A stretch of DNA of 37,265 nucleotides from a virus, in IMG/VR virus record IMGVR_UViG_3300042904_000690, positions 1 through 37,265 of that record; one strand, written 5' to 3'. Below, piece after piece: positions 2,868-37,265 of this stretch. A program made the position numbers and the translations under genes. Positions within the stretch are counted from its first letter, which is position 1; each line of letters begins with the position of its first letter. Under the pieces are notes generated by a model that was not told the DNA's origin, made no database searches, and saw only the letters and a program-made list of their open reading frames with translations.

Positions 2868-3608
2868 ATGTGTTATAATGTTGATAATGCTGATTCAGCT
2901 AGAAAGGTAAAGTGGAAAACAAAGAAGCTGGTTTCACCAAAGCCAGTTAATGAAGCTGTATTTCTAGTTGGTAAGGGTGTTTATCCAGCTATGCATATTA
3001 TCAAGCAAGAAGAACCAGACCTAGTTGATGTGGCTAATTGGGGACTTATACCATCTAAGATTACAAACCCAAGTGAAGCACGGGTATGGCGTGAAAATAC
3101 CCTTAATGCAAGGTGTGAAACTATCTTTGAAAAAACCAGCTTTAAGGGTAACATCTTACCACATCGGTGTCTAGTTCCTGTATCTGGCTTTTTTGAATGG
3201 CGTGACCTTAACGGTGTTAAATACCCACATTATATTACAGCAACCTTTACCGATGTTTTTTATTTAGCTGGTCTGTATGACTATTGGGTAAATCAAGAAA
3301 CTGGATTGAAACAAACGACCTTTAGCATCGTTACCACTGATAGTAATAAGTTAATGACCAAGATTCATAACCAAAAGAAAAGACAGCCGTTAATGTTGAC
3401 TGATGAAGATGCTGATAGATGGTTAAAGAATGATTTATCTGAAGGTGATGTACAAGGGTTGATGGTAAAGACACCAGATGAATTGATGAAAGCACATTCT
3501 ATACCTCGAATACAACCAAAGGTAACAGATGTGCATTCAGAAAGCCTATTAAAAGAAATTGAATACCCAGAACTTACTTTTTATGATGCACTTAATGGTG
3601 ATGATTAA
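2868..3608 (+). CDS. SRAP/HMCES-family abasic-site crosslinking protein (246 aa)
   Basis: This is a SOS-response-associated peptidase (SRAP) domain protein of the YedK/HMCES family, close to the usual family length. The initiator Met is followed by Cys2, which in the family is exposed by Met removal and forms a thiazolidine bond with abasic sites in single-stranded DNA. The other active-site residues are all visible: Asn80 in LNAR, Glu110 in GFFEW and His167 in KIHNQ. The protein protects single-stranded DNA at stalled forks from strand breaks. It forms a pair with the small helical gene just upstream. In a phage it may guard replication intermediates or counter base-excising host defences; that use is inference. 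Confidence 0.92.
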   Translation: MCYNVDNADSARKVKWKTKKLVSPKPVNEAVFLVGKGVYPAMHIIKQEEPDLVDVANWGLIPSKITNPSEARVWRENTLNARCETIFEKTSFKGNILPHRCLVPVSGFFEWRDLNGVKYPHYITATFTDVFYLAGLYDYWVNQETGLKQTTFSIVTTDSNKLMTKIHNQKKRQPLMLTDEDADRWLKNDLSEGDVQGLMVKTPDELMKAHSIPRIQPKVTDVHSESLLKEIEYPELTFYDALNGDD

Positions 3609-4680: not shown

Positions 4681-5700
4681 ATGGATAGTACTACATTTGA
4701 AAAACTACTTCAAAAATCAGAAGGTAGAATTATAGATTTCAAGCGTGAAATGTATGATTTCTCTAATGACCCAGAAAAAAAAGAAATACATTCATACGTT
4801 AAAGACGTTATAAGTTTCTGTAACACAATAAGAAATGAACCATCATATATAATAGTTGGTGTTAAAGATTTAGGTGGTGGTCAACGAGATATGGTAGGAT
4901 TAGAACACCATATTGATGAAGCAGAGCTACAAGCTAAAGTGTTTAATAAGGTTCATCCAAAACCGCTTTTCAATTATCATTTAGTTAACCATCATTCTAA
5001 GACTTTTGGTGTTTTTGAATTTCCACTATATAAATATGAAATGTTGCTGACTTCAACTGTCAACTACAAACAAACTTTAAAAATTGGTACAGCATACTAT
5101 AGAAATGGAAGTGGTAATGTTGAAATACCATTACTTGAAGCCATTAAGATTAATGATTGGTTGCGTACATTGCCAGCACCAGCAGATGAAAATATACAGT
5201 TAATTAACAAGCAAAATTTATTAGCTAAGGCAAATGATAATAATACAAAATTATCAAAGGTATTATCAGAAGTTTTAGCTTTTGCTGAAAACTATAATAA
5301 ATCTGAACTAAAAGAATTTTGTTTAGAACAAATTGCAGGTATAAAAAAGGATTTTAACAGAGAAAATCTTTTTTATAGAGGAAGCCAAATTTTCTTTTGT
5401 ACTGGACACGTTAATCAAATTAATTCCTTTGCAACGATAGGTACAGTTGCTAACTATCTTCAAAATAATAACAATTGTTATACCTATAAATTTTTAATGC
5501 AGGATTCAATTTCAAACTTAGAATCAAATATATCCCGCACAGAAAATGATAAAGGTTTTGTAAAGATAAATTCAACCACATTATCTATAGACCCGAATTT
5601 CAAACCTAAAGCCAATATTACTATTTTCATATCCCATAATAATTATATCCAAGTTTATAATGGAATTAGGCAAGCTTTGATTGAACTCTTGCTTAAATAG
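4681..5700 (+). CDS. Schlafen/AlbA_2-domain protein (339 aa)
   Basis: The N-terminal 150 residues match the AlbA_2 (Schlafen-type) layout: LLQKSEGRIIDFKREMYDF with the hallmark Glu then Asp-Phe-Lys, a helix VKDVISFCNTIRNEPSYIIVGVKDLGGG, and strands around TFGVFEFPLYK and AYYRNGSGNVEIP. Family members bind nucleic acid, and some cleave tRNA or rRNA. The C-terminal 170 residues are not recognised; they end in a small domain with ITIFISHNNYIQVYNGIRQALIELL. It is co-transcribed with the membrane zinc-ribbon protein upstream. It could be a transcription regulator, as many bacterial AlbA proteins are annotated, or a defence nuclease. The sequence does not settle which. Confidence 0.8.
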   Translation: MDSTTFEKLLQKSEGRIIDFKREMYDFSNDPEKKEIHSYVKDVISFCNTIRNEPSYIIVGVKDLGGGQRDMVGLEHHIDEAELQAKVFNKVHPKPLFNYHLVNHHSKTFGVFEFPLYKYEMLLTSTVNYKQTLKIGTAYYRNGSGNVEIPLLEAIKINDWLRTLPAPADENIQLINKQNLLAKANDNNTKLSKVLSEVLAFAENYNKSELKEFCLEQIAGIKKDFNRENLFYRGSQIFFCTGHVNQINSFATIGTVANYLQNNNNCYTYKFLMQDSISNLESNISRTENDKGFVKINSTTLSIDPNFKPKANITIFISHNNYIQVYNGIRQALIELLLK

Positions 5701-6683: not shown

Positions 6684-6772
6684 TAGATAAAGATTATGAA
6701 TAGGATTATAAATAAGATGATACCGATTGCTTCGTACCCTGTTACTTCAATTTTGAATAGTGTTTTTTTCAT
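6683..6772 (-). CDS. Tiny membrane peptide in the replication operon (29 aa)
   Basis: A 29-codon frame reads MKKTLFKIEVTGYEA, then a hydrophobic stretch IGIILFIILFIIFI. It is joined to both neighbours by TAATG junctions: the upstream gene's stop overlaps its ATG, and its own stop overlaps the ATG of the winged-helix gene. Precise coupling on both sides strongly supports translation. It is probably a single-pass membrane peptide with a cytoplasmic basic N-terminus. Function unknown. Confidence 0.65.
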   Translation of the reverse strand: MKKTLFKIEVTGYEAIGIILFIILFIIFI

Positions 6773-8358
6773 TATGCGATTTGTTTAGTGTTTATTATGT
6801 GTTTTAGGATTGGGTGAATGTTCACTTCATCAATCATTTCTGCAACCGTATCAAAACCATCATTATTGATGTACTTGATATAGAATTCTGTTATATCTTC
6901 TGGGAAACTATGAGTATCAGCTAATAGCCTAAATACAGTCATTATAGATGCCTCTGCTTGAACTATTTCTTCTTGAATAGGTTCTTGTGTCGTTTCAATT
7001 TCACTGGTGCTTAAAATGGCTTTATAGTGTTTTTCAATGGATTTTTTAGATACACCAGATTTAGCTTGAATACTTCTAATGGTTATTTTAACACCATCTT
7101 CTTTTAATTCTTTTATAGCTAGAGTTATTTTATTGATGGTGTCATCAGTTTTAATCTGATTTTTGTTTTGTCCTACACCTTGACCTTTTGCACTACATAT
7201 ACACTTGTTGGTTGTATTGTTATCTATTATTGCTTCTTTAATAAGTAGTGCAAAATCATAAGGTGTAGGACAAGATGTATGATGAGTTATTGAAGTTGAA
7301 AGTGTTCTTTTAAAGAATACATCTGAATTAACATCAATAATTGATTTAACTTCATCAATATCTTTTTCTAGGATTATTACAGCATCGTGTACTGGTATAA
7401 CGAATAGACCCTTATTAACTATATCAGTTAAGATATTTGTAATAAAAAATTCAGCTTCTAATTTTTGTAGGGTTGATGCTTTGGTATCACCATTATCAAT
7501 AGTCAATAAGAAGTTGTACATCGCTGGGTAAAGCACCTTGAATGCTTCACTATACTTGCTATTAGCTACAATCGCTTTGTTATCGTTACAAAGAATGGTA
7601 TTAAAAAAGGATTCTTTAAACCTGTCTTTATTGGCGTTAAGGTCAACACCCATCTTTTCAGCAAGCCTTTCATAAAATACACCAGCGAATACATCAGCAT
7701 TGAATGCTAAATCATTTGGGCAAAGCTGGCTAAGAAAAATTAATTGAGCATTTTTAGCGTCAATCTCTACCAAGTTACCCAACTTTGAACATAACTTTCT
7801 TCTGTATTTCTTATTTAGATTAGTTAGCGTATGGTGTACACGGCCAGTAGCTGATTGACTTATTCTTGCTTTGAATATGCTGTTATTGGTGAAGATAACT
7901 TCATCTTCAAGTTGAACACCATCATTTCTTAATTCAATAAGTAGTTCTGGTGTTATCACCAATTTTTCAAGATTGGTTAATATCTGTTTAATCTTTGGGG
8001 TAAGCTTAGAAAAATTGTTTTCAATAATGTAATTGATACGATTAATCAATTTCACACTGGTGATAGTATAATCAATCAATTGTTTTTTTGAATGTGGTAC
8101 AAGAACTTTATATGTTAAGAATTGGTAACCACCTTCACGATAATTTGAAAACACTTCAAGTATTCCTAATTCAACTAGGGTTGTTCTTAATTGGGTGTAG
8201 CTTCTATCACCAAATGTTTTTTTAAGTGCTTGACTGCTTAAGTAAGTACTTTTATTGGTATTCCTTTTTATGATAAGGTGGGTGAAGTAAAGAAGTGAAT
8301 CTTTATCAGGGTGTTCTGATACTAGGTCAAGTATCTCTGTTGTTGTTTTAATTTGCAT
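6772..8358 (-). CDS. Probable replication protein with divergent family-A polymerase-like core (528 aa)
   Basis: Four parts can be seen. Residues 1-95 look like a winged helix (SSQALKKTFGDRSYTQLRTTL, then YQFLTYKV). Residues 165-345 show, in the right order, weak counterparts of family-A polymerase motifs: TGRVHHTLTNLNKKYR (compare TGRLSSxxPNLQ), NLVEIDAKNAQLIFLSQL (motif A, Asp200), DRFKESFFNTIL (motif B region) and VIPVHDAVIIL (motif C-like HD, Asp325). Residues 405-450 hold a helix-turn-helix (ITIRSIQAKSGVSKKSIEKHYKAIL). The rest is a helical tail. No other polymerase, primase or helicase is visible in the window, so this is the best candidate replication gene. The linker around residues 362-397 is encoded by a DNA dyad that recurs upstream of the gene. 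Polymerase activity is inference. Confidence 0.6.
   Translation of the reverse strand: MQIKTTTEILDLVSEHPDKDSLLYFTHLIIKRNTNKSTYLSSQALKKTFGDRSYTQLRTTLVELGILEVFSNYREGGYQFLTYKVLVPHSKKQLIDYTITSVKLINRINYIIENNFSKLTPKIKQILTNLEKLVITPELLIELRNDGVQLEDEVIFTNNSIFKARISQSATGRVHHTLTNLNKKYRRKLCSKLGNLVEIDAKNAQLIFLSQLCPNDLAFNADVFAGVFYERLAEKMGVDLNANKDRFKESFFNTILCNDNKAIVANSKYSEAFKVLYPAMYNFLLTIDNGDTKASTLQKLEAEFFITNILTDIVNKGLFVIPVHDAVIILEKDIDEVKSIIDVNSDVFFKRTLSTSITHHTSCPTPYDFALLIKEAIIDNNTTNKCICSAKGQGVGQNKNQIKTDDTINKITLAIKELKEDGVKITIRSIQAKSGVSKKSIEKHYKAILSTSEIETTQEPIQEEIVQAEASIMTVFRLLADTHSFPEDITEFYIKYINNDGFDTVAEMIDEVNIHPILKHIINTKQIA
7168..7273. repeat. Composite dyad, copy A (inside the replication gene)
   Basis: Outer arms TTGTCCTACACCTT and AAGGTGTAGGACAA (14 bp, perfect) and inner arms TTTTGCACTAC and GTAGTGCAAAA (11 bp, perfect) are placed symmetrically, 4 bases apart on each side, around a 48-base centre. 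The whole element recurs at 8699-8806 with identical internal spacing at a constant offset of 1532 bp. It encodes the linker between the polymerase-like core and the helix-turn-helix. A replication origin or replication-protein binding site is the leading idea. Confidence 0.85.
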
Positions 8359-8404
8359 CTCATTTTATTCCTGTTTTATGTTATGATTCCTTTTTTTGGT
8401 TTTA

Positions 8405-8471
8405 CTTCGGACAGGAACCCACCAGACCGCTAAATCTGATGGGAACCGAAGGAACACTATTGCTAGTGTTC
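8405..8471 (-). other. Two adjacent hairpins in the replication-gene leader
   Basis: Read leftward, TAGAACACTA-GCAA-TAGTGTTC forms a perfect 8-bp stem. It is followed at once by a longer hairpin closed by CTTCGG/CCGAAG with an inner stem CCCATCAGA/TCTGGTGGG (one G-T wobble). They lie about 45-110 bases before the start codon. No T-tract follows the second hairpin. They may be a regulatory leader fold controlling expression of the replication protein. Confidence 0.55.
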
Positions 8472-8600
8472 TAATATAAATATGTTGATAGTTGAAGAAA
8501 ACCAAAAAAGTTTTCAATTCCATCAAAATATAATTAAGGATAATGCAAAAACACCCATAAGTAAATGGTTGAATTGATATTTCTTAATATTTTTTGCGGA

Positions 8601-8644
8601 ATAGTACCCATTCAAGGGTAGGGTTGACGAGATGAACCCCTTTC
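8601..8644 (-). other. Structured start of the replication-gene transcript
   Basis: Read leftward just after the promoter, GGGTT and AACCC form a 5-bp hairpin with a 9-base loop, followed by TACCC-TTGAAT-GGGTA. An alternative fold pairs AAGGG with CCCTT and ACCC with GGGT as an interleaved pseudoknot. The TACC(C)TTGAATGG(G)TA core matches the element downstream of the 2.4-kb leftward promoter. Confidence 0.5.
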
Positions 8645-8649
8645 TACTG

Positions 8650-8681
8650 CAAAGATACCGATTTTTTAAATAGGGTTCAAG
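8650..8681 (-). promoter_or_regulatory. Leftward promoter of the replication operon
   Basis: On the minus strand CTTG (-33) is followed by 20 bases and TATCTTTG (-7, TAnnTTTG). The predicted start, near 8644, gives a leader of about 285 bases before the replication gene. The second copy of the composite dyad lies just upstream of this promoter. Confidence 0.65.
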
Positions 8682-8698
8682 TAGACCACCCAAATAAT

Positions 8699-8806
8699 TT
8701 TGTCCTACACCCTGTCATTTTGCACTACATATACACTTGTTGGTGTTCTATCATACTATAGTTACTATTATAATAAGTAGTGCAAATCGTAAAGGTGTAG
8801 GACAAA
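8699..8806. repeat. Composite dyad, copy B (intergenic)
   Basis: Outer arms TTTGTCCTACACC and GGTGTAGGACAAA (13 bp) and inner arms TTTGCACTAC and GTAGTGCAAA (10 bp) enclose a 48-base centre, with 7-base gaps on both sides. The left 47 bases differ from copy A at only three positions; the centre has diverged but kept its length, and its reading frame is broken by a stop codon. It lies upstream of the replication promoter in a stretch without genes. An overlapping TAATTTTG box (8695-8702) could fire rightward. Confidence 0.85.
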
Positions 8807-9128
8807 GAATATTGTTTAGCATAAACATCGACCCATTTTCTGGTACAGGGGGTACTTTTGGAAAGTGTAATAAAGAATTAATGAAACCCGTATACTATGA
8901 TACAGAAGATTTATAAAGATTATGACGTGATGTCATTAAAGAAACGAGTTAGGCAGAATAATTTTGTATGCAAAAATTGAATAGTACCGTTAATCAGATA
9001 TATTTTTAAATAGCCTAAAACAGAAATACTTCTTTAAGACCGCTGTAGCTTTGATTTTTAGAACACCGCCCAACAGTCCTTTCAAAATAGAAACAAAAGT
9101 GTTATCATATAAAACAAAACCTAATACG
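8807..9128. other. Non-coding stretch with possible rightward promoters
   Basis: No convincing gene is seen here. Two matches to the Bacteroidetes -7 box occur on the plus strand, TACTTTTG at 8853-8860 and TAATTTTG at 8959-8966, both lacking a clear -33 TTG. A short inverted repeat ATGAC/GTCAT lies in between. The stretch probably serves as the divergent control region between the replication operon and the rightward genes. Confidence 0.4.
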
Positions 9129-9338
9129 ATGCTAGAGATACGCAAACGAAGCCCACGCCAACTTACCACTTTTGATGTGTTTGACACCAGATACCCAGAC
9201 CAACCACCAGTATGTGTTCTGGTGACATTCAGAGATTTGATTTACGTTTATGATGGTCATACCACAACCAACAGAATAGAGGTCATTAGCAACCCTATGA
9301 ACCTAATTGCTTACTTGGAGTCCATATATTGTAGGTAG
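9129..9338 (+). CDS. Hypothetical small protein (69 aa)
   Basis: The start chosen is the ATG giving MLEIRKRSPRQLTTF. An in-frame TTG 78 bases upstream would add a basic, less convincing extension. The product is strand-rich (VCVLVTFRDLIYVYDGH) and ends ESIYCR. No family is recognised. It is the first gene of the rightward unit that leads to the nuclease-like and sigma-like genes. Confidence 0.5.
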   Translation: MLEIRKRSPRQLTTFDVFDTRYPDQPPVCVLVTFRDLIYVYDGHTTTNRIEVISNPMNLIAYLESIYCR

Positions 9339-9418
9339 TTTAACCTATTGGAAATTTATTTTCTTCAAAAGGAGGTTTTTTGCTTTTGTCTGGATATTTA
9401 TTAGAAATGATAAATATT

Positions 9419-9961
9419 ATGACACATTCAGAAAAACACAAACACTTCACGACTGCATCAATCCGTGAAAGGTTAATCTTTAAATCAGTTGCTGATGCAA
9501 ACCCCAATCTTTTTAGTGACGTTATCTATAGTGACCCTGAAGGGTACGATGGTTGGGACGTAATATTTATCCTATCTGGTGAAACAAAACCCCGTGTGGT
9601 TGAAACTAAGGTACGTAGCAGTACCAGCACCCATTGTGGGTACACCATTCAAGAAGATAAATATCAGTCTCTAATGGTTTCAGCCTGTACTTATGTACCA
9701 ACATACATTAACTTCTTTAATGATGATAACCAAATGCTGTTGTGGTCTTTAACAGGTGATACACCAACATTTATTGATACGATGTACCAGAATAACAACC
9801 ATAACCAACAAAGACAAATAAAACTAGCAGCGGATTTACCAGCAACAGCTGCTACCAGATTCAAAGCCAACTATGACCTTACAGCCATATACAACAAAGC
9901 TGATAAAATATATAACGATAGACTACACCCAGAACACCCAAAGAAATGGAAACGAATTTAA
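9419..9961 (+). CDS. PD-(D/E)XK nuclease-like protein (180 aa)
   Basis: The core reads DVIYSDPEGYDGWDVIFILSG, then PRVVETKVRSS. This places an Asp at the end of one strand and Glu-x-Lys on the next, the signature of PD-(D/E)XK folds. A helix with QEDKYQSLMVSA follows, as expected for the family. Proteins like this in phages are Holliday-junction resolvases, exonucleases or restriction-like enzymes, and the substrate cannot be told here. The start is uncertain: a TTG at 9380 has a rare strong AAAGGAGG ribosome site just before it, while ATGs at 9407 and 9419 fit Bacteroidetes habits. The gene overlaps the sigma gene by 16 bases. Confidence 0.6.
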   Translation: MTHSEKHKHFTTASIRERLIFKSVADANPNLFSDVIYSDPEGYDGWDVIFILSGETKPRVVETKVRSSTSTHCGYTIQEDKYQSLMVSACTYVPTYINFFNDDNQMLLWSLTGDTPTFIDTMYQNNNHNQQRQIKLAADLPATAATRFKANYDLTAIYNKADKIYNDRLHPEHPKKWKRI

Positions 9962-10590
9962 AAGACCTTGATGTAAACGATTATAAATACTATGTGAAAA
10001 AAATAGCTAATTCCTACCAAGTATCGAACGATGTTAGAACTGAATTAATTCAAGAAGGTTTGATTGGTGTATATGAAGCAAGTCTAAAATATGACCCAAT
10101 ACACGGTAATAGCTTCATAAGCTTTGCTACAACGTACATCAAGAAAAATATGTCAATATACCTTATGAATAACTTAAGGACTGTTAGAGTCCCTTCAAAT
10201 AAGCTAAGAGCGTTAAGAAAGTACCAAGCGATTGAAGACCCAGATACAGCTGATTTAAGCGAGTTTTCAAAATCAGACTTACTATTCATCAACTCTAATG
10301 GTCATAAACCAGAACTAAGCACTGATGAACCAATTAATGATGAATCTGATTCAACATTACTTGATGTATATCAACCAAGTGATGAAGAAAGACCTGAAAT
10401 TATTGATAAGATGCTTAAAGCTGTCAATGAACTACCAGAAAATGACAGGTACTTAATCACAGCATATTACGGTCTTATTGAAGATAGTAAGACACTTGAA
10501 GCAATTGGTCAAGAACAAAACCTTACCAGAGAAAGGATTAGACAAAAGATAGCTGCCATTCAAAAAAAACTAAAAGAAATATTAAAATAA
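9946..10590 (+). CDS. Phage sigma-70-family factor (214 aa)
   Basis: Region 2 is clear at residues 10-80: YVKKIANSYQ, then ELIQEGLIGVYEASLKYDP, then SFISFATTYIKKNMSIYL, ending NNLRTVRVPSN, which resembles the region 2.4/3.0 border of RpoD-type factors (RTIRVP). Region 4 is at residues 150-214: LPENDRYLITAYYGL, then TLEAIGQEQNLTRERIRQKIAAIQKKL, a proper helix-turn-helix. Residues 95-150 are an acidic linker. It should redirect host RNA polymerase to phage promoters. The three-copy late motif, the first copy 790 bases downstream, is the obvious candidate target. Confidence 0.9.
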   Translation: METNLKDLDVNDYKYYVKKIANSYQVSNDVRTELIQEGLIGVYEASLKYDPIHGNSFISFATTYIKKNMSIYLMNNLRTVRVPSNKLRALRKYQAIEDPDTADLSEFSKSDLLFINSNGHKPELSTDEPINDESDSTLLDVYQPSDEERPEIIDKMLKAVNELPENDRYLITAYYGLIEDSKTLEAIGQEQNLTRERIRQKIAAIQKKLKEILK

Positions 10591-10654
10591 TCTGGCTTTT
10601 GCTAAAAGTCCAGGTATTTATATTAAACACCATAACAGAAATAAAAAAAACATT

Positions 10655-10861
10655 ATGACCCCAAAAGAAAAAGAATTCCTTAGACAGCTTAAAGACCTGT
10701 TTAATCCAGAACCAGAAGAAAATGAAATCATTAAACTGGCTATCATACTGCAACTGCAAAAAGCCTATGAAAACCAGCTTTTAATGCAAAGTGACTATAA
10801 AAAACACTTCAACCAAATAACAAAAAGTATTAACCCTTTAACCGATAATGAAAATATCTAA
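10655..10861 (+). CDS. Hypothetical helical protein (68 aa)
   Basis: The product reads MTPKEKEFLRQLKDLF, is charged and almost certainly all-helical (EIIKLAIILQLQKAYENQLL), and has no membrane segment. It overlaps the next gene by 14 bases and lies between the two sigma-like genes. The position suggests a partner of a sigma factor, for example an anti-sigma or adaptor, but that is guesswork from context. Confidence 0.6.
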   Translation: MTPKEKEFLRQLKDLFNPEPEENEIIKLAIILQLQKAYENQLLMQSDYKKHFNQITKSINPLTDNENI

Positions 10862-11372
10862 TGACTGGAATAAAATTGATATAGAAAAAATCATCAACCA
10901 AGACCAACAAGAAATAAATAAACTCTATCAAATCACAAAGACCTATATTATGTACAAATTGGGTAATGATGAAGAACTATTTCACGATTGGTTAATGTGT
11001 GTAATAGCAAAGATTGAAAACTTCAACCCAAAGAAAGGTAAGTTTAGTAGTTGGGCTACCAAGATAGCAGAACATAAGCTTAAGCTTACAAAGAAGAAAA
11101 AAGCAAGAACAATACATCTAATAAGCTACGATAACACCACCATCAATACCGATGATTCACAATTAAGCTTTCTTGAAGTCAATAATAACACAGTTGATTA
11201 TGGTGAATTTAGTATTGAACAAGCCGAACACTTAGAAGAAAAACTTAGCACACTACCTACAGAAGACCAGACCTTCATCAGCGATTACATCAACAGGAAT
11301 ACCACACGTGACCCAAAGACCAGAATGAAGTTTAGTAGGTTGATTACAAAGCTAAAGAACAGCGAACATTAA
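10848..11372 (+). CDS. Second sigma-like protein with degenerate region 4 (174 aa)
   Basis: Residues 20-85 resemble sigma region 2: LYQITKTYIMYKLGN, then FHDWLMCVIAKIENFNPKKGKFSSWATKIAEHKLK, matching the ECF-type pattern of an acidic helix followed by a W-containing recognition helix. A basic patch KKKKAR follows. The C-terminal part (LEEKLSTLPTEDQTFISDYI, then KTRMKFSRLITKLKN) sits where region 4 would be but lacks a clear helix-turn-helix. It could be a second sigma factor, an anti-sigma mimic or a late activator. It ends 8 bases before the first copy of the late promoter motif. Confidence 0.65.
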   Translation: MKISNDWNKIDIEKIINQDQQEINKLYQITKTYIMYKLGNDEELFHDWLMCVIAKIENFNPKKGKFSSWATKIAEHKLKLTKKKKARTIHLISYDNTTINTDDSQLSFLEVNNNTVDYGEFSIEQAEHLEEKLSTLPTEDQTFISDYINRNTTRDPKTRMKFSRLITKLKNSEH

Positions 11373-11379
11373 GTATATC

Positions 11380-11408
11380 GTTACAAAAACAGGTTTTCAT
11401 ACTAGTTA
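11380..11408 (+). promoter_or_regulatory. Phage late promoter, copy 1 (terminase)
   Basis: GTTACAAAAACA and CATACTAGTTA are placed with an 18-base start-to-start distance. The same pair with the same distance precedes two other late genes. It lacks a TAnnTTTG box, so a phage sigma-like factor is the likely reader. The -10-like part lies 5 bases before the first ATG, so the transcript may be nearly leaderless or start at the next ATG. Confidence 0.75.
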
Positions 11409-11412
11409 AGGT

Positions 11413-11838
11413 ATGAAAATGAACAAACACAATCTTGATATTGAAGTAATCATACCTATGCTAATAGATGGTGATTCTTATAGGGTAATAGCTGCAAAGC
11501 TTGGATGTCCATTAAGCACATTGTATGACTTTATGAAGCACCCCGAACATTCCGCACACGTGAACAGTGCTTTGACCATCAGTGCAAACGCTATAGCTGA
11601 AAAAGCAGAATCTGTACTTATCAATGCTGAAGGTACGATGCCAGAGATAAGCCGTGCTAGGGAATTAGCCCAATACTATAAGTGGCTTGCTGCAAAGCGT
11701 AACCCCAAAGGCTTTAGTGATAAGTATTCAGCTGAAATTGATGTCACTGCTACAGTACAAACCTTCAAGGTGATAGTACCAGATGAAGACCCTGTTGATG
11801 ATGATACAGATGATGAAAATGACCCTTCAAAAGCATAA
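11413..11838 (+). CDS. terS: Terminase small subunit (141 aa)
   Basis: Residues 8-40 form a helix-turn-helix (IPMLIDGDSYRVIAAKLGCPLSTLYDFMKHPEH), and residues 45-100 are helical with WLAAKRNPKGFSDKY, a segment typical of Mu- and Rhizobium-phage-like small terminases. The C-terminus is acidic (DEDPVDDDTDDENDPSKA), which is usual where it contacts the motor. The protein recognises the packaging site and feeds the large subunit. It directly precedes the large subunit, separated by two hairpins. A second ATG at codon 3 is an alternative start. Confidence 0.8.
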   Translation: MKMNKHNLDIEVIIPMLIDGDSYRVIAAKLGCPLSTLYDFMKHPEHSAHVNSALTISANAIAEKAESVLINAEGTMPEISRARELAQYYKWLAAKRNPKGFSDKYSAEIDVTATVQTFKVIVPDEDPVDDDTDDENDPSKA

Positions 11839-11951: not shown

Positions 11952-13406
11952 ATGAGTAAACCAATAAACATTGAATGGGTATCTTGGAATAAGATAGTAA
12001 ATACCCATTATTTACCGATACTAAAAGACCAATCAAGAAACGTTATTCTTTATGGTGGTCGTTCTAGTGGTAAATCAAACTTTGTAGCTAAATGGCTTGT
12101 ATTCAAGTGTCTTAATGACCCATACTTCAAGTGTATTCTAGTACGTGAAGTTGCTGATACAATCAAAGAATCAAACTTTAAAGAAGTACGTTCAGCTATT
12201 GAAGACCTTGGGTTATCCCAATACTTCAAGATAACAGAAAACCCCTTACAAATCAAATGTATCAACGGTAACGGCTTTATAGCACGTGGTATGAGTGACA
12301 TTACCAAGATAAAGGGTGTGCATAATGTTAGCTGTATCTGGTTTGATGAAGAGTTCCCAAAAACAATTGAAGATTATATCACCATCAGTACATCTGTAAG
12401 AACAAACAAAGCCCAAAACAAGTTAATCTTCACCATCAACCCAGAAGTATCAGAAGCAGACTACAAAGATAATTACTTCTATAAGATGTTCTTTGCTAGT
12501 AACCCAACAGAAAAGACATTCACCAATGTAACCAGTGTTGATATAGGTGATAAGACTGTTGATATAAGCTACACCTGTCAACATTCAACGTATCTTAATA
12601 ACAGGTGGACTACAGATGCATTTAAAGCTGAAATGCTTAGTATGCAGCGATTAAACCCAGCTAAGTATGTAACGTACTGTCTTGGTGAATGGGGTAACAA
12701 AGAAACGGGTGGATTATATCACAAACATTTTAGCCGTTCTACAAACACCTCTTCAAGTGTAACCTATAATCCAGATTTAGCCCTCTTCTTAAGTGTGGAT
12801 TTTAACGTCAACCCATTTTGTTCTGCTACCATTTGGCAAATAGATGAAGATAAGAACGTCTTGTGTATTGATGAGATAGCCAGCGTCACACCAAACAACA
12901 ACACCAAGGGTATCTGTAAAGAATTCATTAGAAAGTATGCAAATCATTCTAGTGGCTTGTTTATTATGGGTGATGCATCTGGTAGAAACAAAGACACCAG
13001 AAGTGAACAAGGCTGGAATGACTACAAAATTATTGAAACCGAATTAAAGCACTACAAACCAGTCATAAAAGTACCTAGTAAAAATCCATCTATAGTTATG
13101 CGTGGTAATTTCATTAATACGCTGTTTTTAGGCGAAATTAAAGGGATTAACGTAATTATTTCAGATAAATGTGTGCATTTAATTACTGATTTAATCAACC
13201 TAAAAGAAGATTCTGATGGTGGTACTAAAAAAGAAAAGGTATCAGAAAACGGTGTCACGTTTGAAAAGTGGGGACATCATAGCGATACACTAGCTTATTT
13301 TTTATGTGAAGCACTAAGAACTGAATATGGTATCTATCAACACGGTTGTGAAAAACCTAAACCAACACTTGTATTCAAGTCTTACAATCCCAAGACAAAT
13401 TATTAA
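11952..13406 (+). CDS. terL: Terminase large subunit (484 aa)
   Basis: The DNA-packaging motor ATPase and nuclease. Walker A is GGRSSGKS at residues 35-42, and Walker B is CIWFDEE near residue 129 with the catalytic Glu. A coupling motif lies around IFTINPE. The C-terminal RNase H-like nuclease carries acidic residues in LSVDFNVNPF (near residue 281), IMGDASG (near 337) and HHSDTLAYFLCEALR (near 441). The length is normal for the PBSX/Mu-like family. It acts at the portal vertex. The next gene starts 55 bases later behind its own late promoter. Confidence 0.95.
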   Translation: MSKPINIEWVSWNKIVNTHYLPILKDQSRNVILYGGRSSGKSNFVAKWLVFKCLNDPYFKCILVREVADTIKESNFKEVRSAIEDLGLSQYFKITENPLQIKCINGNGFIARGMSDITKIKGVHNVSCIWFDEEFPKTIEDYITISTSVRTNKAQNKLIFTINPEVSEADYKDNYFYKMFFASNPTEKTFTNVTSVDIGDKTVDISYTCQHSTYLNNRWTTDAFKAEMLSMQRLNPAKYVTYCLGEWGNKETGGLYHKHFSRSTNTSSSVTYNPDLALFLSVDFNVNPFCSATIWQIDEDKNVLCIDEIASVTPNNNTKGICKEFIRKYANHSSGLFIMGDASGRNKDTRSEQGWNDYKIIETELKHYKPVIKVPSKNPSIVMRGNFINTLFLGEIKGINVIISDKCVHLITDLINLKEDSDGGTKKEKVSENGVTFEKWGHHSDTLAYFLCEALRTEYGIYQHGCEKPKPTLVFKSYNPKTNY

Positions 13407-13418
13407 ACGCTTGAAGGC

Positions 13419-13447
13419 GTTACAAAATCAATAAACAATACTATTTA
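13419..13447 (+). promoter_or_regulatory. Phage late promoter, copy 2 (head/baseplate unit)
   Basis: GTTACAAAATCA and AATACTATTTA occur at the same 18-base start-to-start distance as in the other two copies. It lies 14 bases before the ATG at 13461. The -35-like part overlaps the end of a small hairpin (AACGC/GCGTT) after the large-terminase stop. Confidence 0.75.
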
Positions 13448-13460
13448 TAATAAAACTACT

Positions 13461-14159
13461 ATGCGATTACTTAGGCTAACAGACTATATAAAACAAATAC
13501 AAAGTGATAATCTTAATCAGATTGTTGAAGGTAATTATAATACCCTTTTAGATGTTGAACAAGCTGCACAAGCTGAAATGATTTCTTATTTAGCACAACG
13601 CTATGATGTTTCAAAGGTCTTTACCGACACAACAGAATTTGACATCACATCAACGTATTCAATTGATAATCTAGTTGAATATACAGCACCAACTTTCAAT
13701 TCATCATCAACTTATTCAACCAATGATAAGGTAGTTTATTCTGGTAGCGTTTATTCAAGTGTATCTGGTTCAACAGGTGTATTACCATCAACTGGTACAA
13801 CATCTTGGTCTTATGTTACTACTGACAAAAGCCTTTATTATGCTATATCAGCTACTACAGGAAATTACCCAGATGATACAGCGTATTGGGTGAAGGGTGA
13901 TAATAGAAATCAGCAAATCGTAATGTATATGGTTGATATTACCCTGTATCATTTGCATTCAAGAATTAATCCGAGGCAAATACCAGAGGTAAGAATGATA
14001 AGATATGACGGTGCAAATGCTTTTCAAAGTGGTGGTGCTATTGGGTGGCTTAAAAAGGTTGCAAGTGGTGATGTAACCGCTGCACTGCCAACAATAACCC
14101 CAGAACAAGGTGTGAGCATCAGATGGGGTAGCATAACAAGAAACACAAACAATTATTAA
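13461..14159 (+). CDS. Mu gp36-like head completion protein with inserted carbohydrate-binding-like module (232 aa)
   Basis: The N-terminal part (residues 1-65, with VEQAAQAEMISYLAQRYDVSKVF) and the C-terminal part (MVDITLYHLHSRINPRQIPEVRMIRYDGA, then WLKKVASGDVTAALP) match the DUF1320/gp36 head-tail connector family. Between them, about residues 75-145, lies an insertion with the chitin-binding type-3-like pattern STYSTNDKVVYSGSVYSSVSG and a closing TAYWVKG. A similar module is inserted in the wedge-like protein at 18966. The connector role is family knowledge; glycan binding by the insert is inference. The stop overlaps the ATG of the portal gene. Confidence 0.75.
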   Translation: MRLLRLTDYIKQIQSDNLNQIVEGNYNTLLDVEQAAQAEMISYLAQRYDVSKVFTDTTEFDITSTYSIDNLVEYTAPTFNSSSTYSTNDKVVYSGSVYSSVSGSTGVLPSTGTTSWSYVTTDKSLYYAISATTGNYPDDTAYWVKGDNRNQQIVMYMVDITLYHLHSRINPRQIPEVRMIRYDGANAFQSGGAIGWLKKVASGDVTAALPTITPEQGVSIRWGSITRNTNNY

Positions 14160-20627: not shown

Positions 20628-20656
20628 GTTACAAAATCACTCAACCATACTAGTTA
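20628..20656 (+). promoter_or_regulatory. Phage late promoter, copy 3 (capsid/tail unit)
   Basis: GTTACAAAATCA and CATACTAGTTA occur at the same 18-base start-to-start distance as the copies at 11380 and 13419. It lies 8 bases before the protease ATG and directly after a terminator, exactly where a new transcription unit is needed. Confidence 0.8.
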
Positions 20657-20664
20657 TAGTATAA

Positions 20665-21774
20665 ATGAAGGATTTTAAATACATACAAAACATTTCAACG
20701 GCTGGTGAAGCAACAATTTTATTATATGATGTAATCGGTTGTTATGTTGATGCTGATGGGTGTATGTGTGATGGTATCAATGGTAGTGCTTTTGCTTATG
20801 AGATGGAATATTTACAAAGCAAAGCAACAAAAATTAATATCCGTATCAATTCTATCGGTGGTAGTGTTCTTGATGGTTATTCAATCATAAGTTCAATTCT
20901 TAGGTCTAAGATACCCGTTGATACTTTTATAGATGGTCTTGCAGCAAGCATAGCTGGTGTAATTGCAATGACTGGTCAAAACAAGCTAATGATGGATTAT
21001 GGAACTTTAATGCTTCATAATCCATCTGGCACGAATGACCAGAGTGTTTTAGACTTAGTAAAGTCAACGCTAGTTACAATTCTAACAAACAATACCAAAT
21101 TATCATCTGAAGAAATTTCTTCAATAATGGATAATGAAACATTTTTTAGTGCTTCTGAAGCCATTGATTTAGGGCTGGTTGATGAAATCATCACAAGCAA
21201 TAAAAAAATAAAAGTTGATACATCAAGCCTTTACAATATGGCTCAAGTGTACAACAAATTAATCAATCCAAATAAAATGCAATTAGTAAAGAATCAATTA
21301 GGCTTAGATGAAGCGGTTGAAGAAACAGTTATTGTTGAATCAATTTCTGCACTTCAAGCTGACAAAGAAGCCTTAGTAAAAGAATTAGAAGCTGAAAAAT
21401 TAGCTAAAGAGGAATTACAAAATAAAATCAATTCAATTGAAGCTGAAAAAATAGAAGCTAAGAATATTGAAATTGAAAATATGGTTAATTCATTTATCAC
21501 ATCTGGTAAAATTTCAGATGATGAAAAAGAATCAATGGTAAAGTTAGCTAGTGTTGATTTTGACGGTGTAAAAAATATGCTTTCAAAGATTGGTACTAAG
21601 ACAGCTTCAAGCATTATCAACGCTGTAAACATAGCAGCACCAACATCAGAACGTTCAACCTGGACTATTAGAGATTGGGAAAAGAAAGATTCAAAAGGTC
21701 TTGCTACAATCAAAAATGAAACACCAGAAGTGTACAATAGAATGTTCAACGAGTTCTACAACAAACAAAAGTAA
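20665..21774 (+). CDS. ClpP-like prohead protease fused to scaffold domain (369 aa)
   Basis: Residues 20-185 are a ClpP-type serine protease: INSIGGSVLDGYSI (oxyanion and handle region), Ser95 in GLAASIAG as nucleophile, and His118 in MLHNPSG. Residues 215-285 are a long charged coiled coil (ALQADKEALVKELEAEKLAKEE onward), and the C-terminal 80 residues end WTIRDWEKKDSKGLATIK. This is the usual protease-plus-scaffold arrangement, in which the coiled coil guides capsid assembly and is then removed. The capsid gene follows after a palindrome. Confidence 0.9.
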   Translation: MKDFKYIQNISTAGEATILLYDVIGCYVDADGCMCDGINGSAFAYEMEYLQSKATKINIRINSIGGSVLDGYSIISSILRSKIPVDTFIDGLAASIAGVIAMTGQNKLMMDYGTLMLHNPSGTNDQSVLDLVKSTLVTILTNNTKLSSEEISSIMDNETFFSASEAIDLGLVDEIITSNKKIKVDTSSLYNMAQVYNKLINPNKMQLVKNQLGLDEAVEETVIVESISALQADKEALVKELEAEKLAKEELQNKINSIEAEKIEAKNIEIENMVNSFITSGKISDDEKESMVKLASVDFDGVKNMLSKIGTKTASSIINAVNIAAPTSERSTWTIRDWEKKDSKGLATIKNETPEVYNRMFNEFYNKQK

Positions 21775-29500: not shown

Positions 29501-30192
29501 TGGCTAATAAAACATACATAAATAAAAATATCAAATCACTAATTGACTTAACGGTTGAATTATATGGTGACGTACGATATGCTTTTAAGCTTATAGATGA
29601 TAATGTTTTTTTAACTGGTATTCAAGATACAATAGAAGTAGGGGTTGAAATTATATTTGATGATGTTCTTTTATCATATCCAGCTAGGGTATTTAAAACA
29701 GTTACTGATTCCTATATCAATAAGAACATCAAATCACTAATTGACTTAACAGTTGAATTATATGGTGATACTAGTTATGTTTTTAAGATGATTGAAGACA
29801 ATAGTTCATTCACTGGAATACACGATGAAGTACCTGTAGGTATGCAAATTAGTTATGATGAATCAATCATTAAACAAGCTAAAACAGCTAAGAAAAAACC
29901 AGTATCAAGTGAAGAAATAAGTGGGTTTAGTACTGTTACAATTGGTACAAATCAGTCTATTTATGATATGGCTATACAGATGTATGGTCAAATTGAAGCG
30001 ATTTTTTCAATCATAAGTGATAACAGTGTTATTGATAATATCAATAATAATAATCTAGTAGGGTTGAAGATGAAATATACACCGCAAACTTTTGCGATAA
30101 CTGAATATTTCAAAACCAATTCAATAAAAATAACAACAGGAATAGCACACGGTAGGGCATTTGATAACTCATTTGACTTATCATTTAATTAA
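29500..30192 (+). CDS. Tail protein X-like protein with three LysM-like repeats (230 aa)
   Basis: Three copies of a LysM/gpX-like unit are visible. Unit 1 (residues 4-58) has IKSLIDLTVELYGDVRYAFKLIDDN. Unit 2 (residues 70-124) has nearly the same text. Unit 3 (about 145-200) is more diverged, with QSIYDMAIQMYGQIEAIFSIISDN. Each ends in a VGxxIxYD-like strand. Phage gpX and LysM proteins bind peptidoglycan or hold the baseplate. Units 1 and 2 are so alike at DNA level that they are a recent duplication. The last 30 residues are unique. Confidence 0.65.
   Translation: MANKTYINKNIKSLIDLTVELYGDVRYAFKLIDDNVFLTGIQDTIEVGVEIIFDDVLLSYPARVFKTVTDSYINKNIKSLIDLTVELYGDTSYVFKMIEDNSSFTGIHDEVPVGMQISYDESIIKQAKTAKKKPVSSEEISGFSTVTIGTNQSIYDMAIQMYGQIEAIFSIISDNSVIDNINNNNLVGLKMKYTPQTFAITEYFKTNSIKITTGIAHGRAFDNSFDLSFN
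29515..29768. repeat. Recent internal duplication, 198-bp period
   Basis: Bases 29515-29570 and 29713-29768 are near identical, sharing a perfect 23-base core (ATCAAATCACTAATTGACTT and 3 more bases), then a single change, then GTTGAATTATATGGTGA. They encode equivalent parts of two adjacent LysM-like units. Confidence 0.85.
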
Positions 30193-30193
30193 T

Positions 30194-32590
30194 ATGTCAA
30201 TAAAAAACAAAGCAAATCTTACTTCAACTCTTAACATAGCGATAACTGATGCACTAAACAATCAGAACACTAGTGTTAATGTACGTGGTATTCTACAAGA
30301 TATTATTGACAGTACACTAAATATTAGTGAAGGTGTTACTGGAATAACAGATACTTACTGGACTAGTGGCTCTACAGGTTACCAATCTGTAAAAGCAAAT
30401 AATGATACTGGTCTGGATGCAACAGGTGATTATGCTTATGCTCACGGGTGGAATGCTCAAGCTATTGGTAATGCAAGTCACGCTGAAGGGTATAATACTG
30501 TTGCATTAGGTGTCACGTCACACGCTGAAGGTGATGCAACCTATGCTAGTGGTCATACAAGTCACGCTGAAGGTTACGGGTCACAAGCCCTTGGTCATTC
30601 AAGTCACGCTGAAGGTGGTGCATATATTTTAGCCCTTATTGGTGGTACTGCTAGTGGTACTGCAAGTCACGCTGAAGGTTTAGTAACAACAGCAAGTGGT
30701 GAAGCAAGTCACGCTGAAGGAAAAGATACAATTGCAAGTGGAATTTATACACACGCTGAAGGTTATGCAAGTACTGCTAGTGGTGACTATAGTCACGTTG
30801 AAGGTGCTGGTAATACTGCTAGTGGTGAAAGAAGTCACGCTGAAGGTGGTGGGTCAATTGCCTCTGGTTACGCTGCACACGCTGAAGGTGCTGCAACAAC
30901 AGCTAGTGGTTATTACTCACATAGTGAAGGTAGTACAACAACAGCTAGTGGTGATTATTCACACGCTGGTGGTAGGTTAACAATTGCATCTGGTCATACT
31001 AGTCACGCTGAAGGTCAATATACAATAGCTGGTGGTAATTCAGCACACGCTGAAGGTTATCAAACATCTGCACTTGGCACTGGTTCACACTCTGAAGGTC
31101 AACAAACAATTGCAACTGGTAGCCAATCACACGCTGAAGGTAATGCTTCAATTGCATCGGGTAATATGTCACACGCTGAAGGTTGGAATACACTAGCTAG
31201 TGGTACTGGTTCACATAGTGAAGGATGGAATACAATTGCATCTGGATTTTTAGCACATTCTGAAGGATGGAATACAACTGCTAGTGGTACTTATTCACAC
31301 GCTGAAGGTAGACAAAACGCTGCAAGTGGTGCTAATGGTTCACACGTTGAAGGTGCTTTTAATATTGCATCTGGTCAATATTCACACGCTGAAGGTGGTG
31401 GGACTGTATCATCAGCTGATGCATCACACGCTGAGGGTGAAGAAACAATAGCTAGTGGTAACCAATCACACGCTGAAGGGAAAAATACAGCTGCAAATGG
31501 TCAAGCTTCACATTCACAAGGTTATATGACCCAAGCTAGTGGTGATTATTCACACGCTGGTGGTAACAATTCTATTGCTTCTGGTCAAACATCATTTGTT
31601 CACGGTTACGGTTCACAAGCACTTGGTGATTCAACAATAGTATTTGGTGATGGTATAATTGGTACTGAAAACAATACACTTTATACACCTAATGTTGTTG
31701 TTGATGGTAGTAGAGTAATTAAATCATTAAATGGTGGTGGTGAATTAAGTCTTGATGCTTATGGTACTTCTAGTGAAATATTATTATCTATTGATAATGC
31801 TGCTTGGAATAAGTCACAATTGTACTTAGCAGATAGTTATCTTGAATTAAGTCAGTACGATGTTGGTGGTCTAATGAAGTTATACGCTGATACTGTAACC
31901 ATTCAAGGTGAAGAAATTGGATTTGGGTTTAATAATTTTATACCTATGCAGCAAATTCAGATTAGAGATAATACTAGTCTTGCAGCAACAACAACAAGTG
32001 CATTATCAAATGCAGCCATATTTATTAATGCAGCTGAATCTTATTTTTCTTCTGGTATAACTAATTCAGTTGTACTTGGTGGTGTAAATGTAAATGCAAG
32101 TGCATCAAATACAGTTTATGTACCATACTTAAATATTAGGTATTTAACAGGTACAACCGCTGTTAACAATCTCGGTATTGATTCTAATGGTTATGTTGTT
32201 ATAGGTAACGCTGGTGGTTCAACCTTCACAGGTGGTACAGTAACTGGTGCAACTAATTTTACAGCTGGTTTATCAGCTTCTACAGTGGTTACGCCAGTAT
32301 CAAGTCAAGTTAATGCTACAACTGCACATACACTTAATCTAGGTGCTTCAAATATTATTTCATATTCAGCTACATCAAATTGTGTATTAAGTTATTCTGG
32401 TGCTGTACAGGGTCAATACTCTATTATAGTTGATAATACACTTGGATATACAATCACATTAGCAACTAGTGCTGGTTGGTATTCCAATCTAGCTATTCAA
32501 CCAAATATAACTGGTCTGGTATATATATCAGCTGTATATGATGGTTCAAGAATGTTTATAACAGAATTAGAAAGTATGGAATTAATCTAA
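30194..32590 (+). CDS. Large tail fibre with YadA-type head repeats (798 aa)
   Basis: I chose the ATG giving MSIKNKANLTSTLN because it directly follows the previous stop. Residues 1-80 are an attachment domain. Residues 81-480 contain 28 tandem 14-residue repeats of the type SHAEGxxTxASGxx, the Hep_Hag/YadA-head motif that folds as a trimeric left-handed beta-roll. Repeat 5 is 21 residues and repeat 21 is 15. Residues 490-798 are a strand-rich C-terminal part with VFGDG, then GGSTFTGGTVTGATN and a final YISAVYDGSRMFITEL. It is probably the main adhesin or long tail fibre. The stop overlaps the next ATG. Confidence 0.85.
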   Translation: MSIKNKANLTSTLNIAITDALNNQNTSVNVRGILQDIIDSTLNISEGVTGITDTYWTSGSTGYQSVKANNDTGLDATGDYAYAHGWNAQAIGNASHAEGYNTVALGVTSHAEGDATYASGHTSHAEGYGSQALGHSSHAEGGAYILALIGGTASGTASHAEGLVTTASGEASHAEGKDTIASGIYTHAEGYASTASGDYSHVEGAGNTASGERSHAEGGGSIASGYAAHAEGAATTASGYYSHSEGSTTTASGDYSHAGGRLTIASGHTSHAEGQYTIAGGNSAHAEGYQTSALGTGSHSEGQQTIATGSQSHAEGNASIASGNMSHAEGWNTLASGTGSHSEGWNTIASGFLAHSEGWNTTASGTYSHAEGRQNAASGANGSHVEGAFNIASGQYSHAEGGGTVSSADASHAEGEETIASGNQSHAEGKNTAANGQASHSQGYMTQASGDYSHAGGNNSIASGQTSFVHGYGSQALGDSTIVFGDGIIGTENNTLYTPNVVVDGSRVIKSLNGGGELSLDAYGTSSEILLSIDNAAWNKSQLYLADSYLELSQYDVGGLMKLYADTVTIQGEEIGFGFNNFIPMQQIQIRDNTSLAATTTSALSNAAIFINAAESYFSSGITNSVVLGGVNVNASASNTVYVPYLNIRYLTGTTAVNNLGIDSNGYVVIGNAGGSTFTGGTVTGATNFTAGLSASTVVTPVSSQVNATTAHTLNLGASNIISYSATSNCVLSYSGAVQGQYSIIVDNTLGYTITLATSAGWYSNLAIQPNITGLVYISAVYDGSRMFITELESMELI
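30434..31633. repeat. Tandem 42-bp repeats encoding YadA-head units
   Basis: 28 units of about 42 bp, each with a near-invariant TCACACGCTGAAGG core followed by a variable part and a degenerate GCTAGTGG or GCATCTGG. The array is a natural site for slippage and phase variation of host range. Confidence 0.85.
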
Positions 32591-35931: not shown

Positions 35932-35962
35932 AAACCCAGATTTAAGTCTGGGTTTCTTTTTT
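35932..35962. terminator. Bidirectional terminator between accessory gene and integrase
   Basis: A perfect 9-bp stem AAACCCAGA and TCTGGGTTT with a 6-base loop, flanked by an A-run and a T-run, separates two convergent genes. Confidence 0.92.
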
Positions 35963-37265
35963 ATATATCTAGTTTATCCATCATACCGTCAAGGCTTTCA
36001 ACGTTGAGTTCTTCAAGATAACGCTGGGTCACCTTAATATCTTTATGACCAAGGGCTTTACTAATGGTTTCAATATCATTAGTTGATTTTTGTACAGCTG
36101 ATGCGAAACTATGACGACCTATATGTGTGGTAATTTTTTTAGAAATACAAGCATCATCAGCTATTTCTTTTAGTAAGCTATTTATATATGATGTTTTACG
36201 ACCAATTTCTTTTTTGAATTCCCTTTTAGTGAATGTAAATACAGCTGGTGGTAAAAAAGGAAAAATTAAATCATCTGGTTTTGAATTTGGCTTAACATAT
36301 AAATCAAGGGTAGCTTGAATCTTTGGTGTTATCTTATAGCTTTTAAGAGTAAAACCAGTACTACCTTTTTTCATATTATATGTGATACGACCATTAAGGA
36401 TATTTTTAACCCTCATTGAAATAGTGTCTTCAACCCTAAGACCAGCTAAACGTACTGAAAACATAAATGCCTTTTGAACGTTGAACTTTGCGGTGTATGG
36501 CTCGTATGGTTCATTTTCAAATAATTCTAGTTCATCTTGGGTTAACCGTTCTTTATATTTCTCTACTATAACAGGCATAGTATAGCTTTTAAATGGGTAT
36601 ATATCGCTGGTGATAATCTCTAAGTCTTCAATAGCATAGTTGTTTATACGTCTAAGACGTTTCATATTAGTGTGTACACTAGAATCACTTGCTGGTTCAT
36701 CACCATTGATTACCTTAAAAAGATATTTTTCAAAACTCTTCAAGGTGTTTTTATCCATATCTTCAAATTCAGTTGTTACTGGTAACCCTTCTTTTTCTAA
36801 GAAACCAGCAAAATGACCCTTGGTAGTGATAAAGCCTTTTTCGGTAGGGTAGTTATCATCTGCATTTAATTCATCAATCATTTTTTGAAATATGCTTAGA
36901 ACGTCTTTTTTTACCGTACCATCTTTAACAGCCTTTACTAAGAATTCTTTCTTGATATTGGGTTGTGATTCCTTTTTTGCTTTATAGGTTGATTTGTAAT
37001 CTGTAAGCTTATCATCCAATTCTTTGTTCTTATAAGCATTTTCTTTGTCTTTATTATTGACCCATTTTTGGGGTATGACCACACGTTTGCTATTATTACC
37101 CTTGGTGACCACCGTCCCAAAATGTTCATTTTTACAGTAAATCTCTGTTTTGACCCTCTGTTTTTTCCCATTTTCGGTTATGACCAGTAGTATCTCGTGA
37201 ACACCTTCACGGTTTGGTCTTGGGTTTAATTCGTACCTAAATGATATGTCTTTCTTCTTTTTCAT
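35961..37265 (-). CDS. int: Tyrosine recombinase integrase (434 aa)
   Basis: The catalytic domain (residues 235-434) contains Arg277 in RLAGLRVED, a lysine in MKKGSTG near 300, His381 and Arg384 in HIGRH, His407 in LGHKD, and the nucleophile Tyr416 in TQRYLE. Residues 105-225 are the SAM-like core-binding domain (KGHFAGFLEKEG, then NTLKSFEKYLF, then MKRLRRINNYAIE), and residues 1-75 form a strand-rich arm-binding domain. The layout is typical of Bacteroidetes phage integrases. The start codon is the last base of the window, so the promoter and attachment site are outside it. Confidence 0.95.
   Translation of the reverse strand: MKKKKDISFRYELNPRPNREGVHEILLVITENGKKQRVKTEIYCKNEHFGTVVTKGNNSKRVVIPQKWVNNKDKENAYKNKELDDKLTDYKSTYKAKKESQPNIKKEFLVKAVKDGTVKKDVLSIFQKMIDELNADDNYPTEKGFITTKGHFAGFLEKEGLPVTTEFEDMDKNTLKSFEKYLFKVINGDEPASDSSVHTNMKRLRRINNYAIEDLEIITSDIYPFKSYTMPVIVEKYKERLTQDELELFENEPYEPYTAKFNVQKAFMFSVRLAGLRVEDTISMRVKNILNGRITYNMKKGSTGFTLKSYKITPKIQATLDLYVKPNSKPDDLIFPFLPPAVFTFTKREFKKEIGRKTSYINSLLKEIADDACISKKITTHIGRHSFASAVQKSTNDIETISKALGHKDIKVTQRYLEELNVESLDGMMDKLDI

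Follow-up and report, generated by a model that had tools for sequence, protein, structure and literature searches.

The window, a stretch of 37,265 nucleotides analysed at its full length, is a prophage (G000:C58:11632-48896) inside a contig of 181.8 kb that belongs to an assembly of 4.06 Mb. We identify it as such because ordinary chromosomal genes, such as those for GMP synthase and LysM proteins, precede it, an integrase gene closes it at one end, and genes for the terminase, a Mu-type portal, a head protease and the capsid form an ordered run (PHROGs, Pfam; Table 1). To judge by the genes present and by a relationship to flavobacterial phages, the host is probably a member of the Bacteroidota. 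Immediately 5' of the virion genes, two sigma-family genes sit in neighbouring transcription units. The gene for the first of these proteins, sigma 1, is overlapped by 16 nt by an upstream gene whose product is without match in PHROGs, Pfam and NCBIfam, while the gene for the second, a sigma-like protein of 174 aa, is overlapped by 14 nt by the gene for a 68-aa protein and is itself the final gene ahead of the terminase small subunit gene, terS. A sequence-only reading of this DNA had placed two sigma-like genes in tandem just before the late genes, with a small helical protein between them; its coordinates, lengths and gene order proved exact, terS and terL come next, and the intervening protein is predicted to form three helices.

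Table 1. Features of the sigma locus and its surroundings, with two compared genes from other phages. Positions are those of the window unless a locus is named.
Feature	Position	Strand	Basis or context
528-aa family-A-polymerase-like protein	6772-8358	-	possible replication protein
Gene of unknown function	9419-9961	+	ATG start, open frame from 9380
Sigma 1, 214 aa	9946-10590	+	Pfam regions 2 and 4, PHROG 351, RpoS structures, RpoD alignment
68-aa helical protein	10655-10861	+	orphan
Sigma-like protein 2, 174 aa	10848-11372	+	Pfam Sigma70_r2; ECF profile; length comparison
Late motif copy 1, GTTACAAAAACAGGTTTTCATACTAGTTAA	11380-11409	+	before terS
Terminase small subunit (terS)	11413-11838	+	PHROG 1482, 6e-11; Pfam Sf6_terminase
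Terminase large subunit (terL)	11952-13406	+	Pfam Terminase_3, 5e-38
Late motif copy 2, GTTACAAAATCAATAAACAATACTATTTAT	13419-13448	+	before Mu gp36-like gene
Late motif copy 3, GTTACAAAATCACTCAACCATACTAGTTAT	20628-20657	+	before head maturation protease and capsid genes
Phage integrase	35961-37265		closes the prophage
Small ECF-like gene, congener's prophage	L015:7048-7512	-	immediately before terS and terL
gp35, Nonlabens phage P12024L, annotated 'Sigma-70 region 2'	L144:4492-4971	+	four genes before terL

Sigma 1 aligns with RpoS and RpoD along regions 2 to 4 and is nearest to these two proteins. In agreement with the earlier claim that its regions 2 and 4 are clear, both exceed the Pfam cut-offs (Sigma70_r2, 32.7 bits against 24; Sigma70_r4, 32.8 bits against 24.1), and the protein matches PHROG 351 (sigma factor) at 2.2e-33 and RpoS structures at 3e-17. 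Judged by these matches, sigma 1 is a complete but minimal member of the sigma-70 family. In an alignment with two host RpoD-like proteins, its recognition helix reads LTRERIRQ where host RpoD has LTRERVRQ and the short region-3 finger segment STDEPINDESDSTLLDV is kept, while region 2.3 reads TYIKK where both host proteins have WWIRQ. We infer that the -10 preference of sigma 1 is probably altered.

The 174-aa protein carries an ECF-type region 2 that scores 29.6 bits against Pfam Sigma70_r2 (cut-off 24; residues 26-87), with the segments DEELFHDWL and FNPKKGKFSSW aligning to ECF regions 2.2-2.3. This profile match answers the doubt, raised along with the tandem arrangement, as to whether the second protein has a sigma region-2 fold at all: its region 2 is real. 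The same protein gave no Pfam region-4 match, and against the ECF superfamily model NCBIfam TIGR02937 it reached 28.1 bits, below the cut-off of 42.9, over model positions 15-126 of 165. A profile built from 13 sigma proteins matches it through a clear region 2 and a still visible region 4.1-like helix, the match ending at residue 147. Since two comparable phage sigma-like proteins likewise show no Pfam region-4 match in their C-terminal halves, the missing match is by itself weak evidence, and length weighs more. When region 4 is measured from where region 4.1 begins to where the last helix ends, it spans 35 residues in the 174-aa protein, compared with 45-46 in 12 ECF/sigma proteins, 49 in a thirteenth (h124, measured to a later end point) and 43 and 44 in two phage sigma-like proteins, which makes it some 10 residues shorter than in any of these 15 sigma proteins. 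By this measure, about one helix's worth is missing inside region 4; according to the alignments, the lost piece may be the helix that opens the helix-turn-helix or the latter half of region 4.1, and the other reading frames across the region-4 stretch of the gene did not contain it. The description of the second protein as region-2-like with no convincing region 4 is thus borne out. We file it, from these profile results, as sigma-like rather than as an ECF sigma factor, because the region-2 domain is present but the full-length ECF model scored below its cut-off and region 4 gave no match and is shorter than normal.

Searches of the IMG/VR, phage, plasmid and GTDB contig collections and of 87 family and 395 class genomes returned no close homologue of the 174-aa protein, the weak matches being to ordinary sigma factors only, and AlphaFold, run on it without an alignment, gave a mean pLDDT of 35. 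The isolation of this protein, the loss of about one region-4 helix and the replacement of the core-binding Q of region 2.2 by H would all suit a sigma mimic or competitor that acts on the core enzyme or on sigma 1 to lower or time late transcription, or else a decaying copy of an ECF gene. Its frame is nevertheless intact, its region 2 lies above the cut-off, and its gene, coupled to the adjacent one, occupies the place that late activators have in other phages; we regard a mimic or a decaying copy as distinctly improbable.

The 68-aa protein is a candidate partner of the 174-aa protein. Its predicted model consists of three helices (residues 3-16, 24-44 and 46-59) with a moderate mean pLDDT of 73, and a PDB search with this model returned no fold match. 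The protein matched neither sigma2 nor sigma4, and no homologue was present among the loci fetched as terminase relatives. A weak similarity to the effector-associated domain EAD11 (Pfam, E 0.002) lies below the cut-off.

The late genes share the bipartite motif GTTACAAAAnCA-N7-ATACTAnTTAw, of which the window contains three exact copies where 0.01 would be expected by chance, while the rest of the 4.06 Mb genome contains none, even with one mismatch. All three copies are on the coding strand, 33-42 nt ahead of a late gene's start codon, and the genes after the third include those for the protease and the major head protein as identified by PHROGs. Around the motif, 23 of 42 columns are invariant, and two of the copies have a partly palindromic second block. 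The three late motifs to which the sequence-only reading had referred are therefore real, and their distribution argues strongly that they form a late promoter or operator specific to the phage. Because the motif occurs exactly three times genome-wide, each time before a late gene of the prophage, a dedicated phage specificity factor is likely. Bacteroidota promoters differ from E. coli promoters, and a search ahead of these genes did not turn up the host-type TTTG/TAnnTTTG promoter. Seven IMG/VR contigs that contain the motif pattern encode no relative of either sigma protein, and we took these occurrences as chance. We also note that the motif stops just a few bases short of the start codons (11380-11413, 13419-13461 and 20628-20665); a sigma70-like reading that takes ATACTA.TTA as the -10 element would therefore make the late mRNAs nearly leaderless.

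Which protein might read this motif is the least certain step of the model that we favour below. The main rival to that model is that sigma 1 acts by itself as the late sigma factor, with the 174-aa and 68-aa proteins tuning its activity or being dispensable, because both DNA-reading domains are present in sigma 1 only and the motif consists of two blocks. A reading with a sigma70-like spacing is available (GTTACA, 17 bp, TAKTTA), and the TRER-RQ residues of the host primary sigma factor recur in the recognition helix of sigma 1 while its -10-reading part is changed, so that sigma 1 itself may recognise the late promoters. This explanation would, however, leave an intact and translationally coupled second sigma-like gene in a late-regulator position without a task, and a small ECF-like gene fills that position in two other phages of the host group; we consider it doubtful. 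A second explanation dispenses with sigma factors as readers of the motif and assigns this role to a phage polymerase, the 528-aa protein, in which the segments VEIDAKNAQ and IPVHDAVII resemble, by eye, motifs A and C of family-A polymerases. This protein is without database match to any RNA polymerase or known family, its relatives are distant, unannotated frames in phage records of 595-642 kb and in one family genome, and two sigma genes would be superfluous beside such an enzyme, and we give this idea almost no weight.

Altogether, we tentatively favour, at something short of an even chance, a cascade of two steps, with the 68-aa and 174-aa proteins acting jointly on the late motif, because the layout of the genes equals that of gp28 and gp33/gp34 in phage SPO1. 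In this cascade, phage factors would bind the core RNA polymerase of the host and bring it to the three late sites instead. Sigma 1 would be made first and help to express the 68-aa and 174-aa genes, after which the 174-aa protein would dock on the beta' clamp via its ECF-type region 2 and, with its reduced region 4 and the 68-aa protein as its probable partner, open the late promoters. The curated cut-offs passed by both region 2s and by region 4 of sigma 1, together with a motif that is exclusive to the three late starts, speak for this model; against it, the two conserved blocks of the motif suggest two DNA-reading domains, yet region 4 of the 174-aa protein is abnormal, sigma genes are absent from the terminase relatives examined, and the late mRNAs would have almost no leader if ATACTA.TTA is the -10 element. 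A candidate signal for the proposed order was rejected: TCYRGRTATTTAT at 9389 and 10609, considered as a promoter class of the two sigma operons, has 25 matches against 22.5 expected when two mismatches are allowed, and 1276 of 2000 shuffles reached the local similarity of the stretches upstream of the two operons. The proposed order is therefore without support from sequence, because the candidate motif shared by both sigma operons is no better than chance. The sequence-only reading had offered a cascade, a sigma factor with a co-factor and a sigma factor with a mimic as options; the two sigma-family proteins, the phage-specific late motif and the SPO1-like layout stand, while the sequence does not separate the options from one another. 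The locus is probably the late-transcription switch of a temperate Bacteroidota phage.

The parallel with SPO1 lies in arrangement. In SPO1, the middle sigma factor gp28 (225 aa) is, like sigma 1, complete and about 220 aa long, and the more divergent late sigma factor gp34 (197 aa) has its start overlapped by 4 nt by the small gene for the accessory protein gp33 (101 aa); here a protein of 214 aa is followed by one of 68 aa whose gene overlaps that of the 174-aa protein by 14 nt. The resemblance does not extend to sequence: we found no kinship with gp33, no convincing kinship with gp34 and nothing beyond the general sigma fold, and gp33 matches Phage_Gene33 (PF25742) at 1.9e-38 while the 68-aa protein does not. 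Moreover, gp34 keeps a region 4, which the ECF profile follows almost to the end, in contrast to the shortened region 4 of the 174-aa protein, and SPO1 genes 28 and 33/34 are about 20 kb apart, whereas the sigma genes here sit in neighbouring transcription units. SPO1 is also a virulent phage of Bacillota, while the present prophage is temperate. If our inference is right, the locus would work like the SPO1 system and yet not be a member of the SPO1 type, because the 68-aa protein falls outside Phage_Gene33 and sequence kinship is lacking.

The combination of a present region 2, an incomplete region 4 and a small helical protein encoded by an overlapping gene also invites comparison with T4. 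By this analogy, the 174-aa protein would supply domain 2 only, and the 68-aa protein would sit on the beta flap in place of domain 4, with no reading of a -35 element. Unlike the present motif with its two blocks, however, T4 late promoters lack an upstream element. In T4, gp55 resembles sigma factors in domain 2 only and has a short, hydrophobic-acidic C-terminus that binds the clamp, and gp33 is a sigma4 mimic (PMC2988020). The clear similarity in region 2 and the candidate small partner fit this scheme, although a region 4.1-like helix is still visible up to residue 147; the end of the 174-aa protein, ITKLKNSEH, is however basic and unlike that of gp55, and the 68-aa protein has similarity neither to sigma4 nor to gp33, which makes a split sigma factor of the T4 kind quite unlikely in our view. 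Sigma2 and sigma4 are likewise carried by separate proteins in SigO-RsoA of Bacillus subtilis (PMC8103513), which shares with the present locus two sigma-family proteins encoded by adjacent genes and differs from it in that sigma 1 carries both domains.

Returning to the two-step cascade, the position of the 174-aa gene has counterparts elsewhere. None of 80 IMG/VR loci and 8 loci from class genomes, all fetched by their terminase, has a sigma gene before the terminase, and the sigma pair is accordingly not conserved among the terminase relatives examined. In two phages of the host group whose terminase neighbourhoods are unrelated to that of the present prophage, namely the prophage of a congener and Nonlabens phage P12024L, a small ECF-like protein of 154-159 aa is nevertheless encoded few genes before terS/terL. 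These two proteins differ from the 174-aa protein in their nearly normal region 4 of 43-44 residues, and no second sigma gene is present in the stretches examined, unlike at the present locus; a search of the phage collection with the 174-aa protein did not retrieve P12024L. The late regulators RinA/Ltr of staphylococcal phages are encoded directly upstream of terS (PMC13123087), as is the 174-aa protein, with the difference that RinA/Ltr are activators of about 130 aa and the proteins here belong to the sigma family. The place before the terminase is thus a recurring site for a sigma-like late regulator, because the congener's prophage and P12024L keep an ECF-like gene there and RinA/Ltr occupy it likewise. 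ECF-like genes at this site are possibly a widespread, undescribed type of late regulator in Bacteroidota phages.

Phage sigma cascades in the literature cited here come mainly from SPO1 and T4, and late sigma strategies are known from a few laboratory phages; the present pair would be a variant of these and not a new class. What the prophage adds is a compact Bacteroidota case with two sigma-like proteins, one small partner and three promoters, which raises the question of how far domain 4 can be reduced in a working sigma factor. We speculate, while considering it unlikely, that the 174-aa protein is an ECF-derived late sigma factor minus one domain-4 helix that functions only together with the 68-aa protein, the latter replacing the lost part and contacting the -35-like block. 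If true, the two proteins would form an independently evolved two-piece late sigma factor. As the genome has the late motif nowhere but before the three late genes, a reporter and few proteins would suffice to test the system directly.

Finally, we note several features elsewhere on the prophage. Between the divergent gene for the 528-aa protein and the sigma operon lies about 1 kb without an assigned gene (8359-9379), in which a candidate frame of 95 aa may be present at 9051-9338. The same gap contains, ahead of the late-strand genes, a long inverted repeat (8699-8806) with 34-nt arms that are 82% complementary and 40 nt apart; it overlaps a stretch whose translation is 63% identical to part of the 528-aa protein, and it could possibly be an operator, an origin or a decayed duplicate. 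Further upstream are a gene for an SRAP-domain protein (SOS-response-associated peptidase; 2868-3608) and one for a Schlafen/AlbA_2 domain protein (4681-5700), possibly a regulator or a defence gene. An 809-aa tail-associated protein (30161-32590) contains dozens of degenerate SHAEG-type repeats, comparable to those of trimeric adhesin heads.
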